From Syntrophaceae bacterium (lineage in GTDB: Bacteria > Desulfobacterota > BSN033 > UBA1163), in NCBI GenBank assembly GCA_013388635.1, contig JACAEX010000073.1, positions 1 through 55,561 on the forward strand: a stretch of DNA of 55,561 nt, in the 5' to 3' direction. Below are positions 1,248-20,559 of this stretch, in pieces. Position 1 is the stretch's first letter. Every line of letters begins with the position of its first letter. Below the pieces are notes generated by a model. That model saw nothing but the letters and a program-made list of their open reading frames with translations. It searched no databases and was not told where the DNA came from. The translations under genes and the position numbers were made by a program.

Positions 1248-1317
1248 AAAAGGCGTCTCTTTTAAACCTGTGGAGGCAGGTTAGAGACGCCTTTGTCTAA
1301 AAAGATACGGCTTTGTA
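1248..1317 (-). promoter_or_regulatory. glnA leader: two A1/G4 hexaloop hairpins overlapping a terminator (ANTAR-type)
   Basis: Read on the minus strand, a hairpin TAC-AAAGCC-GTA (1306-1317) is followed after 7 bases by AGAC-AAAGGC-GTCT (1285-1298). Both loops are six bases with A at position 1 and G at position 4. The second hairpin shares its bases with a strong stem formed by AAGGCGTCTCT and AGAGACGCCTT (1250-1293), which encloses an inner hairpin AACCTG/CAGGTT and runs into a short T tract. The second hexaloop and the terminator cannot form together. This matches the published two-hexaloop RNA target of ANTAR antiterminators. That an ANTAR protein acts here is inference. Confidence 0.72.
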
Positions 1318-1332
1318 CTACCGAGCTGAACG

Positions 1333-14050: not shown

Positions 14051-15493
14051 TCAACTTTCTTCGTCAGAAACGAGCACCTCTTTCTTAATGTGATACCTCT
14101 CCATCTTTCCTCGAAGGGTGTTTCGGTTGATCCCCAAAAGCTGGGCTGCCTGAAGCTGGTTTCCCTTCGTCTTTTGGAGGGCACGAAGGATCAGTTCCCT
14201 TTCGACGGTAGCGATCATATCCAGACCCTGCCGGGTCGCAGTCCCTCTCGAGAGCTCCTCGAAGAGGATGTTTAGAAGCTCTTCCATAGGTCTTTTGCCA
14301 AGATCCTCTTCGGCCTCTGGTCTCTCCCAGGTCTTCTCCAGGAGGAGCTGATCCTCAAGAATCCATTCGCCCTGGCATAAGAGCATCGCTCTCTTCAGGA
14401 CGTTCTCAAGTTGACGGACATTTCCAGGCCATCCATAGTCAGTGATCTTCTCCATGGCGGCAGGGGTGATGCCGACGATCTTCTTTTTCAGCTCACGATT
14501 AAATTTTTTCAGGAAATAGGAGACCAGGTCAGGGATGTCCTCTTTTCTCTCCCTCAAAGCCGGTATCCGGATGGAGACCACGTTGAGCCGGTAGTAGAGA
14601 TCCTCCCTGAACCTACGGTTTGAAATCGCCTCTTCTAAATCTTTGTTCGTTGCGACAATGAATCGGATGTCCACCCGGATCGTCTCCATCCCTCCTAACC
14701 TTTCAAAGCTTCTCTCCTGGAGGACTCGCAATAATTTGGCCTGCGTGGAAAGAGACATATCGCCGATCTCGTCAAGGAAGATCGTCCCTCCCTGACACTG
14801 CTCAAGCTTTCCGATACGGCGGGAGATGGCACCGGTGAAGGCCCCTTTCTCATGGCCGAAGAGCTCGCTCTCAAGAAGGGTGTCGGGGATGGCTGCGCAA
14901 TTGACGGGAAGAAAGGGCTGGTTGACACGGGTGCTATGATGATAGATTGCCCGGGCGATCAGTTCCTTACCGGTTCCGCTTTCCCCTCGCAGGAGCACGG
15001 TGACGTCGCTCGGAGCAACCTGGCCGATCATCTTAAAGATCTCCTGCATCTTAGAGGAGGATCCGATGATCTGCTCTCTTTCGTCCGCTCCGGCCGGCTC
15101 GACCAGAGCATAAGAGACCTCCTCCGTCATCAATCTCCGCAGGGAGAGGGCTTTTTCGATCAGGCTCTTCATCTGGGGGATGGGAAATGGTTTCAGGATG
15201 TAGTCGAAGGCTCCGTATTTCATCGCCTCGATTGCCGTCTCGGTTGTTCCATAAGCGGTCATGATGATCACGAGAGATTTGGGATCGATGGACCTGATCT
15301 CTTTCAGCACCTCAATCCCGTTTCGACCAGGCATTTTGATGTCCATGATGATGAGGTCAGGCGCATGCTGTTTGAACTGGTCCAATGCCTCCTCTCCATT
15401 CTGAGCGGTCAGAACGGAAAAATCGCGCTCCATCATCCTTTTCAAAGAGTACCGGATGGACTTCTCGTCATCGACGATCAGGACGGTTTGCAT
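14051..15493 (-). CDS. Sigma-54-dependent response regulator, NtrC family
   Basis: A transcription activator of 480 residues. The receiver domain holds VDDEKS and the phospho-acceptor Asp in LIIMDIKMPGRNG. The AAA+ domain has Walker A GESGTGKE, the sigma-54-contacting GAFTGA loop and Walker B GGTIFLDEIGDM. A Fis-type helix-turn-helix closes the protein (NQLQAAQLLGINRNTLRGKM). GGGGTGAG precedes ATG 15493, 4 bases after the kinase stop, so the pair is one operon. With two sigma-54 promoters on nitrogen genes in the window (glnA, amtB), it is a strong NtrC candidate. The partner kinase has GAF domains rather than the PAS of classical NtrB, so another signal is possible. Confidence 0.93.
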   Translation of the reverse strand: MQTVLIVDDEKSIRYSLKRMMERDFSVLTAQNGEEALDQFKQHAPDLIIMDIKMPGRNGIEVLKEIRSIDPKSLVIIMTAYGTTETAIEAMKYGAFDYILKPFPIPQMKSLIEKALSLRRLMTEEVSYALVEPAGADEREQIIGSSSKMQEIFKMIGQVAPSDVTVLLRGESGTGKELIARAIYHHSTRVNQPFLPVNCAAIPDTLLESELFGHEKGAFTGAISRRIGKLEQCQGGTIFLDEIGDMSLSTQAKLLRVLQERSFERLGGMETIRVDIRFIVATNKDLEEAISNRRFREDLYYRLNVVSIRIPALRERKEDIPDLVSYFLKKFNRELKKKIVGITPAAMEKITDYGWPGNVRQLENVLKRAMLLCQGEWILEDQLLLEKTWERPEAEEDLGKRPMEELLNILFEELSRGTATRQGLDMIATVERELILRALQKTKGNQLQAAQLLGINRNTLRGKMERYHIKKEVLVSDEES

Positions 15494-15497
15494 CTTC

Positions 15498-17255
15498 TCA
15501 CCCCTGGTCTATTGGGAGATAGACGGTAAAGGTCGTTCCCTCATCTGGATCACTTGTCACATCGATCTTCCCGTGATGCTGGTCGATGATTCGATAAGCA
15601 ATGGAGAGGCCGAGGCCGATCCCTCCTTCTTTGGTAGAGAAGAAAGGGTCGAAGAGCCTGTTCATGTCCTCAGGAGGGATGCCGACCCCAGAATCTTGAA
15701 TGGCCAGTTGTACCCATTGCCCATCTTTGGATACCCCGCCCTGCAATTTCAATCGACCTCCTCCTGGCATCGCCTGTATGGCATTCATCAAGAGATTGAG
15801 GATCACCTGTTTCATCTGTTCCTTATCGATGGTGATGAGAGGTAAGGATAAAAAATCTTTTTCGACGGAGATCTGGAGCTTCTCCGTCTGGGGCCTCAGG
15901 AGCTGAAGGGTTTCTTCAAAAATGGAGGTGACCTCCGTTCTTTCTAAATTGGGTGATGCGGGTTTAGCGAACTGGAGAAATTGGTTTATGATCTCATTGA
16001 TCCTTTGAATCTCCTCTTCAATCACCTGGAAGTCCTCTCGCTGAGGATCTCCTAATGGGAGATTCTGGATCATGGAGTGGATGAGGATGTTGATGCTCGT
16101 CAGCGGATTTCGAATCTCGTGTGCGATGCCTGCGGCCAGCTGCCCAAGGGCAGCCAATCTCTCAGACCGGATCAGTTGGGCCTCCGCCTTTCTGAGGTCA
16201 GCCGTCGTTTTCTTGATCTTCTGCTCCATCTCCTGGCTGAAGGCCTTAAGTTCCTGGTACATGAAGGCGTTGTGGATCGCCAGACCTGCCTGCTGGGCAA
16301 AGGTCATCACCGCTTCGAGGGCCTCCTTTGTGATCGTCCTCCCTGGCTCGACGTGATCTGCCGCAATCACCCCCAGGGGCTTTTCCCTGGCGAAGAGGGG
16401 GATGACGACCAGGGAGTGCAGGTTGAACTTCTTTTTGAGCATCGGGTTGACCGTGGGGTCCTGGGTTGCATCAGGAATGACAAGGGGTCGCTTTTCAAAA
16501 ATCGATCGGGCCACCACGCTATCCGCGGGATCGAGGGGCAGAACGATTCCCTTGATCATCTCTTCGTCCACACCGACTGCCATTTTACACTCGAGAATAT
16601 TCTTCCTTTCGTTGACCAGGTAGAGCCGGGCCCGATCAAATCCGATGTTCTTCGTCACTCCCTCCAAGACCAGTCTGAGGATCTCATCGATCTCTAACGT
16701 CTCCATCAAGCCGGCATTTTCAATACAGATGGCAGCCTGATTGGCCACGGTGGATAGCACCTCCTCTTCGGTTTTCGAAAAGGAATGGGGATAGGAGGTG
16801 TAGCAGTTGATCACCCCGAGCACGCGGTTCTTCACACACATCGGGACACTGAGCATCGAGACCAGGCCTTCCTTTTTGGCCAGTTCTTTCTCTTTATAAA
16901 GTGGATCTTTGAGGACATCGGGGATGGCCATGGGCTGATTGTGGAGGGCCACATGGCCCACCACCCCTTCTCCTATCTTCAGGCTTCTCTCCTTCAGGTA
17001 TGCTTCACTGATGCTCTGCGTTGCCTTCAACTTCAACCTTTGGTCTTTCTCATCTAGGATCCAGAGGGAACATATCTTTGAGTCCATGAGATTAGCCGTG
17101 ACGGTTACAATTAGACGTAAGACGTCATCGAGATAGAGGCCAGAGGCAATTGCCCTGCTGATCTCTAAAAGGGCATTGATCTCTCTGGACTCAATAAGAG
17201 GTTTTTCTCCGTCCAAAGAATGGCTCTCCTTTTTCTTGTTATCATAAACGAAAAC
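15498..17255 (-). CDS. GAF-domain sensor histidine kinase (partner of the NtrC-like regulator)
   Basis: Autophosphorylating kinase for the regulator encoded immediately downstream. Domains: first GAF (from LLEISRAIASGLYLDDVLRL), second GAF (from ILRLVLEGVTKNIGFDRARL), coiled coil, HisKA with the phospho-accepting His in AAGIAHEIRNPLTSINILIH, and HATPase with N box NLLMNAIQAMPGG, DSGVGIPPEDMNRLFDPFFS and GGIGLGLSIAYRII. The start is uncertain. ATG 17255 gives a soluble 585-residue protein of the usual layout. A TTG at 17327 would add 24 residues forming a membrane segment, but those codons lie on the terminator of the upstream gene and lack a ribosome site. The N-terminal boundary is therefore an inference; the rest is secure. 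Confidence 0.9.
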   Translation of the reverse strand, partial: VFVYDNKKKESHSLDGEKPLIESREINALLEISRAIASGLYLDDVLRLIVTVTANLMDSKICSLWILDEKDQRLKLKATQSISEAYLKERSLKIGEGVVGHVALHNQPMAIPDVLKDPLYKEKELAKKEGLVSMLSVPMCVKNRVLGVINCYTSYPHSFSKTEEEVLSTVANQAAICIENAGLMETLEIDEILRLVLEGVTKNIGFDRARLYLVNERKNILECKMAVGVDEEMIKGIVLPLDPADSVVARSIFEKRPLVIPDATQDPTVNPMLKKKFNLHSLVVIPLFAREKPLGVIAADHVEPGRTITKEALEAVMTFAQQAGLAIHNAFMYQELKAFSQEMEQKIKKTTADLRKAEAQLIRSERLAALGQLAAGIAHEIRNPLTSINILIHSMIQNLPLGDPQREDFQVIEEEIQRINEIINQFLQFAKPASPNLERTEVTSIFEETLQLLRPQTEKLQISVEKDFLSLPLITIDKEQMKQVILNLLMNAIQAMPGGGRLKLQGGVSKDGQWVQLAIQDSGVGIPPEDMNRLFDPFFSTKEGGIGLGLSIAYRIIDQHHGKIDVTSDPDEGTTFTVYLPIDQG

Positions 17256-17286
17256 CATCCATTTGAAAAGTAGAATACTGATAGCT

Positions 17287-17320
17287 AAAAAAAGGGGATA
17301 CCAGAAAAACAGGTATCCCC
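17287..17320 (-). terminator. Intrinsic terminator after the glutamate synthase-like gene
   Basis: On the minus strand, GGGGATACC-TGTTTTTCT-GGTATCCCC is followed by seven T. The 9-bp perfect stem and T tract make a strong terminator, 25 bases after the stop at 17345. The kinase gene therefore probably needs its own promoter or depends on read-through. Confidence 0.88.
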
Positions 17321-17344
17321 TCCTCAACAGCCATTTTTTTTTAA

Positions 17345-18913
17345 TTAACCTAAAATCTTATTGACCTCCTCCTGATCACAATCCATTGCATAGGGAATTC
17401 CAGAGACCTCAGCAGCCTCACGAGTCAGGGCGCAAAGGTCATTTCTGGTGATGTATTTCAGCGCAAATTTTCTGGCCCCAGCCATTAGCTGTTGAAGGCC
17501 TGCGTTCAGCCGATCAAAATAGGTGATCATGCCAATGGTTCCTGTGGGGATACGTTCAAAGTCCTTCCCATACTTCTCTTTTAACTTCGCCGCCAAGACA
17601 AAGATGTGCTCCACATCTGTTCCAAACTTTGCGATATCCGAAGGGACTTTACCTTTTTTGACCATTTGACCAATTGTGTTTCCCACCATCGCAGCAGTCA
17701 TCGAGGCTCGTCCCAGACAGATCGCCTTGATATAGGGTGCGGCCAGAGCAATGGCTTTGAAGATATGGTCTTCTAAGGCAAGTCCGCCTGCCATGGCACA
17801 GGATGGGATGAATGCTCCCTTTTGTTCTAAGCGTTTCAAGAATTTGTAGAGGAGACTTTCAAGGTAAACCGTAGGGATTCCCCATTCGTTCATCATGCGC
17901 CAAGGGCTCATCCCAGTTCCCCCTCCGGCGCCATCCACGGTGAGAAGATCGATCTTTGCATCGGAGGCATATTTCACAGCCCTTGCCAGATCCGCAGGCC
18001 TGTAGGCACCGGTTTTCAGGGAGATATGTTTGGCTCCAATCTTTTTCAGCCGTTCCACTTCTTTATGGAATCCTTCTTCGCTCACCATTCCAAGTCTGGA
18101 ATGGCGTTCGAATTCCTTAAAATCTCCCTGTTTAAAGGCTTCCTGAATCACCGGGTCTTCAGGATCGGGCAGGACGATGTACCCTCGGCTCTTCAATTGG
18201 AGAGCCCTTTCCAAGCTCGGAAGTTTGACCTCACCTCCGATGTCTTTGGCACCCTGGCCCCATTTCGGTTCAATGATCTGGACGCCCAATTTTTCTACGA
18301 CATATTCTGGAACGCCCAGGCGTCCGTCTTCCACATTATATTGGACGACGATCCCACCGTACCCGTCATACCACTGTTGAAATATCTTGACCCGACGCTC
18401 CATCTCGGGAGATCGGACCACGCGGCCATTTTTAAATTCTGAATTGGGATCCATGCCACAAACATTTTCTCCAACAACAACCAGAGTTCCAGAAATAGCT
18501 GCTGCAATCGCCATCGATTCCCAATGGATGCGGGCGATATCGGTCGATCCCAAGGCACCAGTAAAATAGGGGACTTTCATTCGAATTTTTTCGTTTGCTC
18601 CAACCTCTGTCGAGATATCCACCGATGGAAAGGTAGCATGGTCAGAATCAGCTGATACACCAATTGCTCCCACGCAGGTTCCCTGAATGTTGAAATGGGA
18701 GTAATCGATGGGGTAGTCTTTTTCAGAACCTGCGGTGACTTTAGAATAAGGCTGGGGATAGAGAATCTCCCTTCCTCTCAAGGCAGAACGACCCACTTCG
18801 CATGGACCTGGGCAACCGTCCAGGCAGGTTACACAGATCCCTGAAATAGGGGCAGGTTCAACACGGTTTTTGGTAAAAGTGGCTGGGCTTCGATTTGGTT
18901 TTGTAAATGTCAT
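17345..18913 (-). CDS. FMN-binding glutamate synthase family protein (stand-alone GltB central domain)
   Basis: The 522-residue product corresponds to the FMN-dependent synthase domain of glutamate synthase without the glutaminase or NADPH subunit. Motifs: LKTGAYRPADLARAVKYASD, DLLTVDGAGGGTGMSPWRMM (FMN and 2-oxoglutarate site) and GGLALEDHIFKAIALAAPYI. Near the N-terminus ICVTCLDGCPGPC gives a four-cysteine C-x2-C-x3-C-x3-C pattern that could hold an Fe-S cluster; the canonical GltB 3Fe-4S cysteine motif was not found. Related proteins are thought to use ferredoxin or an unidentified donor; the donor here is unknown. ATG 18913 follows AAGGAGGAGAAAC. An upstream in-frame start at 18979 falls inside the leader hairpin and is rejected. 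Expression is expected to be controlled by the leader at 18944-19048. Confidence 0.88.
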   Translation of the reverse strand: MTFTKPNRSPATFTKNRVEPAPISGICVTCLDGCPGPCEVGRSALRGREILYPQPYSKVTAGSEKDYPIDYSHFNIQGTCVGAIGVSADSDHATFPSVDISTEVGANEKIRMKVPYFTGALGSTDIARIHWESMAIAAAISGTLVVVGENVCGMDPNSEFKNGRVVRSPEMERRVKIFQQWYDGYGGIVVQYNVEDGRLGVPEYVVEKLGVQIIEPKWGQGAKDIGGEVKLPSLERALQLKSRGYIVLPDPEDPVIQEAFKQGDFKEFERHSRLGMVSEEGFHKEVERLKKIGAKHISLKTGAYRPADLARAVKYASDAKIDLLTVDGAGGGTGMSPWRMMNEWGIPTVYLESLLYKFLKRLEQKGAFIPSCAMAGGLALEDHIFKAIALAAPYIKAICLGRASMTAAMVGNTIGQMVKKGKVPSDIAKFGTDVEHIFVLAAKLKEKYGKDFERIPTGTIGMITYFDRLNAGLQQLMAGARKFALKYITRNDLCALTREAAEVSGIPYAMDCDQEEVNKILG

Positions 18914-18943: not shown

Positions 18944-19048
18944 AAAAAAGGCGCCAAATTGCTTTGACGCCTTCGTCATTCATACAGCGTTGTAGTAAAT
19001 TATGGGAGGTCGTTTTTAAGACCCCCATTACCAATACGCCTTTGTATT
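18944..19048 (-). promoter_or_regulatory. Leader of the glutamate synthase-like gene: three hexaloop hairpins and a terminator (ANTAR-type)
   Basis: In transcript order on the minus strand: AATAC-AAAGGC-GTATT (19033-19048); a strong bulged hairpin, ATGGGGGTC with GACCTCCCAT (19002-19028); TAC-AACGCT-GTA (18983-18994); TGAC-GAAGGC-GTCA (18965-18978); and a terminator, AAGGCGTCAAA-GCAA-TTTGGCGCCTT plus TTTT (18944-18973). The first two loops have A1 and G4; the last loop has G at position 1 and G4. The last hexaloop shares bases with the terminator, so the two are mutually exclusive. This is the same design as the glnA leader, with one additional hexaloop and an inserted hairpin. Control by an ANTAR antiterminator is inferred. 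Confidence 0.7.
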
Positions 19049-19057
19049 TCGGGGCTT

Positions 19058-19086
19058 TTATTAAAATAAAATTTAGTTATTGTCAA
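19058..19086 (-). promoter_or_regulatory. Sigma-70-type promoter of the glutamate synthase-like gene
   Basis: Minus strand: consensus TTGACA (19081-19086), 17 bases, then TAATAA (19058-19063), a weak -10. The predicted start near 19050 coincides with the first hexaloop hairpin, so the whole leader would be transcribed. The -35 is perfect and the -10 poor, which suggests activator help. Confidence 0.6.
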
Positions 19087-19251: not shown

Positions 19252-20559
19252 ATGAGCGGAAAGATTTCAACTGGGATTGGTTATCTGGATCACATTCTTG
19301 GATTTCTCAAGACTGGCGATAATGTGATCTGGGAGGTTGAGGCTGGGACATATATAGAGATTTTTCTTCAACGCTTCATTGAACACAACTTGAAGAGTGG
19401 ATACAAATTGGTCTATGTCAGTTTTAATGCCTCTCCATCTACTCTATCTAAGCGTTTAGCTCATCTTTCCCATTTAGAATCCCTTACGATCCTGGATTGC
19501 TTTACCTCTGGGAAGGGGAATAATGATCCTCTTTTTGCGCAATTCTATGAGAAGGAAAAAGAGAAGTTTAAGGGAAATGTCATCAAGGTTGAAAACCCAA
19601 AAGACCATTCACAATTTCGTGTTGCTCTGGATCGGATTGAGGTTGAGAAAGGATCAGGCGTTCGCTATATTTTCGACAGCCTCACCGGAATGCAGGACAT
19701 CTGGGGCGATGAGAATGTGACTTACAAATTTTTCACTTACTCCTGTCCGAGGCTCTATGACCTTCAGACCGTAGCCTACTGGGTTTTGGAAAAGGAAGCG
19801 CACACCTCATCCTTTAAGGCGAATCTGAGACATATCACTCAAGTAGCGATTGAACTTGAGAAAGAGAACGGAGAGCTCTTTCTCAAGGCAAACAAAATTG
19901 AAGGTAGATTTTCTAAGGTCGCCTTTCTTCCAAAACATTATGAAGCCTGGGGAGATGAGATCATTTTCCCTTCGATCGGCGGCCGAAGGCCTAGCAGTTT
20001 AGGTGAAAAAATTAAAGCGTTGAGAAAAAAGATAGGTATGACCCAGAAGGAACTGGCCGAACAGGTGGGCTTAACCCCGAGTTTTATTAGTCAGTTAGAG
20101 AAGAACCTGATCAGTCCATCCCTCGATTCCCTCCTGAAGTTGAGCGAAAAACTGAATACCCAGCCAGTCTATTTTCTGATGGAGAATGAGAGTGAGCCTT
20201 TACAAAAAATAGTGATCAAGCCCAATGAAAGGCAGAATGTTCAACTTCCGTCAGTGAAGGCAACGAAAGTTAAACTTGAATTATTGGTTTCCGATACACT
20301 AAATCGCCGGATGGAACCTTATCTCTTAACAATAAAAGAGGGTGAGGTCATTGATGGACATTTTTATAACCATAAAGGGGATGAATTTGCTTATGTGATA
20401 GAGGGAGAGCTGGAGGTGGAGATTCACGATGAAAAACATCTATTAAGTCAGGGGGATAGTTTTTACATCGAATCGAGATTTCCATCGAGATGGGTCAATA
20501 AGGGAAAGGGAAATGCGGTAATTCTATGGGTTTTAAGCCCCCCAAGGGCAGGTCTATAA
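19252..20559 (+). CDS. Fusion regulator: KaiC/RecA-like pseudo-ATPase, XRE helix-turn-helix, cupin
   Basis: A 435-residue protein with an unusual order. Residues 1-235 resemble a KaiC/RecA core (GIGYLDHILGFLKTGDNVIW at the start, LVYVSFNASPSTLSKRLAHL and YIFDSLTGMQDIWG at a Walker B-like strand), but the Walker A position reads EVEAGTYIEIF with no GK(S/T), so ATP hydrolysis is unlikely. Residues about 244-300 are a classical XRE domain (LGEKIKALRKKIGMTQKELA then EQVGLTPSFISQLEKNLISP). Residues about 350-430 are a cupin (EGEVIDGHFYNHKGDEFAYV, then IEGELEVEIHDEKHLLSQGD). XRE-cupin proteins usually sense a small ligand and autoregulate. It is divergent from the glutamate synthase-like gene and upstream of the NADH module, so either could be its target; this is inference. 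Confidence 0.85.
   Translation: MSGKISTGIGYLDHILGFLKTGDNVIWEVEAGTYIEIFLQRFIEHNLKSGYKLVYVSFNASPSTLSKRLAHLSHLESLTILDCFTSGKGNNDPLFAQFYEKEKEKFKGNVIKVENPKDHSQFRVALDRIEVEKGSGVRYIFDSLTGMQDIWGDENVTYKFFTYSCPRLYDLQTVAYWVLEKEAHTSSFKANLRHITQVAIELEKENGELFLKANKIEGRFSKVAFLPKHYEAWGDEIIFPSIGGRRPSSLGEKIKALRKKIGMTQKELAEQVGLTPSFISQLEKNLISPSLDSLLKLSEKLNTQPVYFLMENESEPLQKIVIKPNERQNVQLPSVKATKVKLELLVSDTLNRRMEPYLLTIKEGEVIDGHFYNHKGDEFAYVIEGELEVEIHDEKHLLSQGDSFYIESRFPSRWVNKGKGNAVILWVLSPPRAGL

Follow-up and report, generated by a model that had tools for sequence, protein, structure and literature searches.

GnfR of Geobacter is an ANTAR antiterminator of nitrogen-fixation genes. In the EutV/eutP, NasR/nasF and AmiR systems, the RNA target is a dual-hexaloop antiterminator, made of two hairpins whose 6-nt loops have G in position 4 and, in most cases, A in position 1; the second of these hairpins overlaps an intrinsic terminator (Ramesh 2012, PMC3369931; PMC8934654). 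A lone hexaloop has been proposed as the minimal binding site (PMC8934654), and ANTAR substrates are described ahead of the glutamate synthase genes of Desulfotomaculum reducens and the nitrogenase genes of Pelobacter (PMC3369931). Among other RNA switches, tandem pseudo-cooperative riboswitches line up serial sensor-terminator units before one gene, and a steeper, more digital response is expected of them (PMC9481103). ANTAR leaders have so far been treated as single dual-hexaloop switches, whereas the family analysed here shows one, two or three serial modules, and broken intermediates, before the same gene.

Layout and fold of the gltB2-like leader

The window, that is, the whole 55,561-nt stretch analysed here, encodes on its minus strand a GltB2-like protein of 522 aa with a glutamate synthase domain (PF01645; 17345..18913), followed by a GAF histidine kinase and an NtrC-type response regulator (14051..17327, minus), which are probably co-transcribed with it. 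Read 5' to 3' on this strand, the leader comprises a promoter, hexaloop 1, a bulged hairpin, hexaloops 2 and 3, a terminator and a ribosome site before the ATG at 18913. The three hexaloops, the 9-bp bulged hairpin and a terminator that has bases in common with the last hexaloop had been described in a first-pass annotation, and all of them were found again on the minus strand. A plus-strand reading was rejected, the region being in that direction an ordinary divergent promoter of an HTH-cupin gene.

The promoter is sigma-70-like, TTGACA-N17-TAATAA (19086-19058, minus). Its -35 element (TTGACA, 19081..19086) is also seen in most orthologous leaders, about as far from the first hairpin, and its -10 element (TAATAA, 19058..19063, after a 17-nt spacer) recurs with identical hexamer and spacing in the relatives G001 and G012. 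This -10 element is weak, and a strict consensus promoter scan missed the window promoter. Directly downstream of the predicted transcription start, where other leaders have the P1 hairpin of module 1, lies hexaloop hairpin 1 (AATAC-AAAGGC-GTATT, 19033..19048, minus); its loop letters are those of the module-1 P1 loop in G010, and we read it as the P1 of a degenerate module 1. The inserted bulged hairpin (ATGGGGGTC..GACC-T-CCCAT, 19002..19028, minus) has 9 bp, a predicted energy of -12.6 to -13.6 kcal/mol and no U-tract, and is best read as a decayed module-1 terminator. A complete module follows (module 2, 18944..18997, minus). It consists of hexaloop hairpin 2 (TAC-AACGCT-GTA, 18983..18994) as P1, hexaloop hairpin 3 (TGAC-GAAGGC-GTCA, 18965..18978) as P2, the antiterminator hairpin, and an intrinsic terminator, AAGGCGTCAAA-GCAA-TTTGGCGCCTT plus U6 (18944..18973; 11-bp helix 18973-18948), with a predicted energy of about -15.8 kcal/mol. 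The 3-bp stem of hairpin 2 is weak, at about 0 (0.1) against -2.2 kcal/mol for hairpin 1.

The leader fold was more stable than expected (z = -5.5), none of 200 shuffles being equally stable. Hexaloop hairpins of the leader type numbered 84 on both strands of the 55.6 kb, and the gltB2-like leader was the only site in the window with three of them within 100 nt; when the leader was shuffled 20,000 times by mononucleotides, no shuffle had three. Two terminator-like sites were found against 0.3 expected, one being the leader terminator. The antiterminated state with local hairpins was predicted to be less stable (-18.8 against -31.5 kcal/mol), as expected of a protein-dependent state. The minimum free energy fold of the unbound leader (-44 kcal/mol, against -31.5 with local hairpins) pairs loop 1 with loop 2 at a distance, which in this model would mask both loops; as a conserved lock this pairing was rejected, since the G001 leader does not have that fold.

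The ANTAR-type module and its putative protein partner

An ANTAR substrate has two hairpins, each with a stem of 3 bp or more and a 6-nt loop bearing A1 and G4, a short constrained linker, and a P2 overlapping a mutually exclusive intrinsic terminator. Loops 1 and 2 of the window have such stems and both letters; in loop 3, G4 is accompanied by G1, so that A1, taken strictly, is lacking. The annotation had singled out this G in the last loop; it is present, but G1 is common in the family (14 of 71 loops: 7/37 first and 7/34 second loops). Loops 2 and 3 lie 17 nt apart, start to start, the commonest family value (20 modules), whereas the 52 nt between loops 1 and 2 exceed a short linker. The overlap of P2 with the terminator is conserved and covarying.

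A covariance model, R1, was made from window module 2 aligned with 14 modules of other leaders (15 training rows). In the window's genome (G000), it matched window module 2, a training member (E = 1.2e-14), the glnA leader, which is outside the training set (E = 1.4e-5), and, weakly, a site on contig C32 ahead of asd (E = 0.04). Orthologous gltB2 leaders have the same module, and in a phylum-wide sample of 395 genomes, 61 had R1 matches. Covariation among leaders had been put forward as a check on the three hexaloops and the insert. It was seen in the terminator helix, where both sides changed in 4 of 11 pairs and 94.5% of cells are paired, but not in the P1 and P2 stems, which show almost no variation within the family set; the insert, present in two leaders only, gives no meaningful count. 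Given this invariance, P1 and P2 draw their support from the conserved loops and from more distant leaders, in which the stem letters vary (TAC/GTA, CAC/GTG, AAC/GTT) and the loop is kept.

The glnA leader of the window (1248..1320, minus) has one module, with hairpins TAC-AAAGCC-GTA and GAC-AAAGGC-GTC followed by a terminator, and a sigma-54-like TGGCAT-N5-TTGC upstream. The two-hexaloop glnA design invoked in the first-pass annotation thus exists, at 1320-1248, and the difference in promoter type between the two genes holds, which supports the suggestion that antitermination is their shared control point. Elsewhere in the window, amtB-glnB-glnD is preceded by a sigma-54-like TTGGCAC-N5-TTGCTTTT (about 11974-11955, minus), with no hexaloops seen there. 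On contig C90, the end of one glnA is immediately followed by the gene of a 2,528-aa fused FAD/Fe-S/glutamate synthase protein (L116:324-7910, G000:C90); the contig ends suggest that C90 joins C37, and this gene likely lies after the glnA at window position 1. The asd site (G000:C32:150-203, L119; asd at L119:224-1246), read by eye, appears to be a well-formed ANTAR module whose stem letters differ (AAC/GTT), with TAC-GAGGAC-GTA and AAC-AGGGGT-GTT overlapping a terminator. In G001, asd is preceded by the same kind of module (G001:C26, L186).

The only ANTAR protein encoded by G000 is a GAF-ANTAR protein on contig C8, beside a second glnA. An ANTAR protein is encoded in all 17 family genomes, singly in nearly all, and its gene lies immediately 5' of the gltB2 leader in five relatives (G007, G008, G010, G021, G022); no conserved hexaloops were found upstream of the ANTAR gene itself. 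Among R1-positive genomes also scanned for the protein, 25 of 27 encode one, against 47 of 98 overall. We compared the G000 protein with the 11 RNA contacts of EutV (PMC8934654), on a numbering that takes chain and paper to differ by 2 residues: seven are kept (R142, K143, K149, E160, R168, M172, R175), three are conservatively replaced (R for K147, F for Y164, D for N173), and R177 differs. The GAF domain is similar to those of NifA and PtsP. Taken as sequence evidence, the module 2 match, its recurrence in orthologous leaders and the ANTAR gene linkage argue strongly, as first annotated, for an ANTAR-type antitermination leader.

Tandem arrays in relatives and the origin of the third loop

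The gltB2 leaders of relatives carry one module with two hexaloops (G003), two modules (G004, G008, G010, G012, G013) or, in G016, three modules with six hexaloops and three U-tracts (L184 12572-12736, G016:C6), of which the third terminator looks degenerate. Incomplete arrays were also found: the G007 leader has two terminators and a second module without P1, and that of G002 a complete first module and a second without terminator. The G001 leader is arranged as in the window, with a P1 on its own, then a hairpin lacking a U-tract and a complete module. Some array P2 hairpins are off consensus: that of module 2 in G004 has a GAC/GTT stem, and that of module 2 in G008 has T1. The leader unit of G022 is literally duplicated in tandem over 168 bp at 76% identity (L014:1153-1488, G022:C194); a further hexaloop, GAC-AAAGAT-GTC, sits within the apical part of the terminator in that leader.

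ANTAR arrays extend beyond gltB2 and beyond this family. Read by eye, two-module arrays precede gdhA in G005, G012 and G016, some with degenerate P2, and a KaiC/PPDK-like 879-aa gene in G006; two well-separated modules precede gltB2 in L013, L039-L042 and the Aerophobetes contigs L044 and L046. The genes gdhA, asd and the KaiC/PPDK-like gene are likely added ANTAR targets. In the gdhA leaders of G012 (L175 9545-9655) and G016 (L184 14610-14718), the first-module P2 loop has 5 nt, not 6 (GAT-GGGGC-GTC and GAT-CGGGC-ATC), and the terminator is intact. The 879-aa gene (L170:1834-4473) lies beside gdhA, behind a two-module ANTAR array; its product has a C-terminal PPDK_N domain, and its N-terminus resembles the KaiC-like portion of the HTH-cupin protein encoded in the window (19252-20559).

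With one terminator and three loops, the window leader falls short of a tandem attenuator, defined as at least two complete P1-P2-terminator units. Successive P1 hairpins in arrays are 52-58 nt apart; loops 1 and 2 are 52 nt apart in the window and 46 in G001. The inserted-hairpin stretch, which is short and G/C-biased, aligned with array terminator-1 regions better than shuffled sequence did (p = 0.0035), and for the G001 stretch by itself p was 0.066. Window module 1 was nearer to the module 1 of others (62-68%) than to their module 2 (54-62%) in five of five comparisons; between module 2 of the window and that of G013, identity reaches 89%. These sequence comparisons suggest that the window leader is most likely a degenerate derivative of a tandem array, in which module 1 lost its P2 loop and its terminator or U-tract. 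This account is the simplest, because the period, the position of loop 1, the insert alignment and the arrays in relatives all fit it. The third hexaloop and spacer had been annotated as a design of their own; the insert is variable and no conserved domain, two of the 11 leaders having it in genomes that are not sisters, and with the arrays of relatives a relic is the likelier explanation. In the gltB2 DNA tree, a clade of G000 and G001 was rejected (AU test, p = 0.02); the loop 1/insert state would therefore have arisen or been kept twice, and the loop 1 that survives may have a role under selection. A concatenated gene tree was set aside, as it mixed glnA paralogues, and the gltB2 DNA tree with the AU test was used.

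That repeated state also speaks for reading the leader as a single integrated unit that needs two ANTAR dimers, or one dimer passed from loop 1 to 2 to 3, the spacer folding loop 1 near loop 2. Loop 1 has kept A1 and G4, and its stem is the stronger (-2.2 against 0.1 kcal/mol). We nevertheless consider this reading unlikely, given that only 2 of 11 leaders have the arrangement, that G003 manages with two hexaloops, and that a P1-P2 linker 20 nt longer abolished antitermination by EutV (PMC8934654), which speaks against long-distance cooperation; every part is explained by tandem origin without it. Still less probable is that module 1 goes on attenuating, the inserted hairpin pausing or terminating RNA polymerase without a good U-tract. 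The hairpin is stable (-12.6 to -13.6 kcal/mol) and stands where relatives have terminator 1, but AUAAUUU follows it instead of a U-run, the terminator scan missed it, and no P2 hexaloop is there to control it.

That the leader is a plain terminator or a riboswitch-like element with no relation to ANTAR proteins, its hexaloops arising by chance, could be argued from the shortness of the hexaloop motifs and from an Rfam gathering-threshold scan of the window, in which no family matched. We give this reading hardly any credence: the hexaloop triple is unique in 55 kb, A/G1 and G4 are conserved, and the ANTAR gene is associated with the leader, the same module standing before glnA, gdhA and asd.

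Proposed mechanism and known counterparts

From the sequence elements, homology, the array architecture of relatives and the ANTAR gene linkage, we propose, at a probability of roughly three in four, that the leader is an ANTAR-controlled attenuator of a GltB2-like nitrogen-assimilation gene, and that its upstream loop and insert are the relic of a first tandem module. By default, the terminator (18973-18948) would form and transcription would stop. On a presumed signal, an active dimer of the C8 GAF-ANTAR protein would bind hexaloops 2 (P1) and 3 (P2); with P2 held by the dimer, the terminator would be blocked and transcription would read through into gltB2, probably reaching the downstream GAF kinase and NtrC-type regulator. 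In module 1, P1 appears to survive and the P2 loop and terminator function to be gone; hexaloop 1 may remain an extra protein-recruiting site.

A graded response had been suggested for the additional loop. Complete modules in a chain should multiply their termination probabilities, and by analogy a tighter, steeper switch is expected instead. A broader and more tentative idea, against which we see the odds, is that serial ANTAR attenuators govern the nitrogen-assimilation genes of this lineage, growing by tandem duplication and shrinking by decay, as a protein-sensing counterpart of tandem riboswitches, and that protein recruited by the window's leftover hexaloop continues to tune the switch that is left. 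The leaders form a natural series for asking what the number of attenuators does to leakiness and steepness, whether a single hexaloop is functional, and how arrays evolve.

The substrates of Desulfotomaculum reducens and Pelobacter are the same kind of RNA on nitrogen assimilation, and the main text of PMC3369931 makes no mention of tandem modules. Nor was a description of tandem ANTAR modules found in the main texts of the openly accessible literature. Dual-hexaloop ANTAR leaders, including those before glutamate synthase genes, are already known (PMC3369931); within those texts, serial ANTAR attenuators are apparently undescribed. Compared with tandem riboswitches (PMC9481103), a review of which does not contain the word ANTAR in its text, sensing here would rely on a site for an RNA-binding protein and not on an aptamer. 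Compared with the EutV, NasR and AmiR type, the window leader has an extra upstream hexaloop and hairpin, relatives have two to three whole modules in series, G1 is tolerated, and the regulator is a GAF-ANTAR rather than a REC-ANTAR protein.
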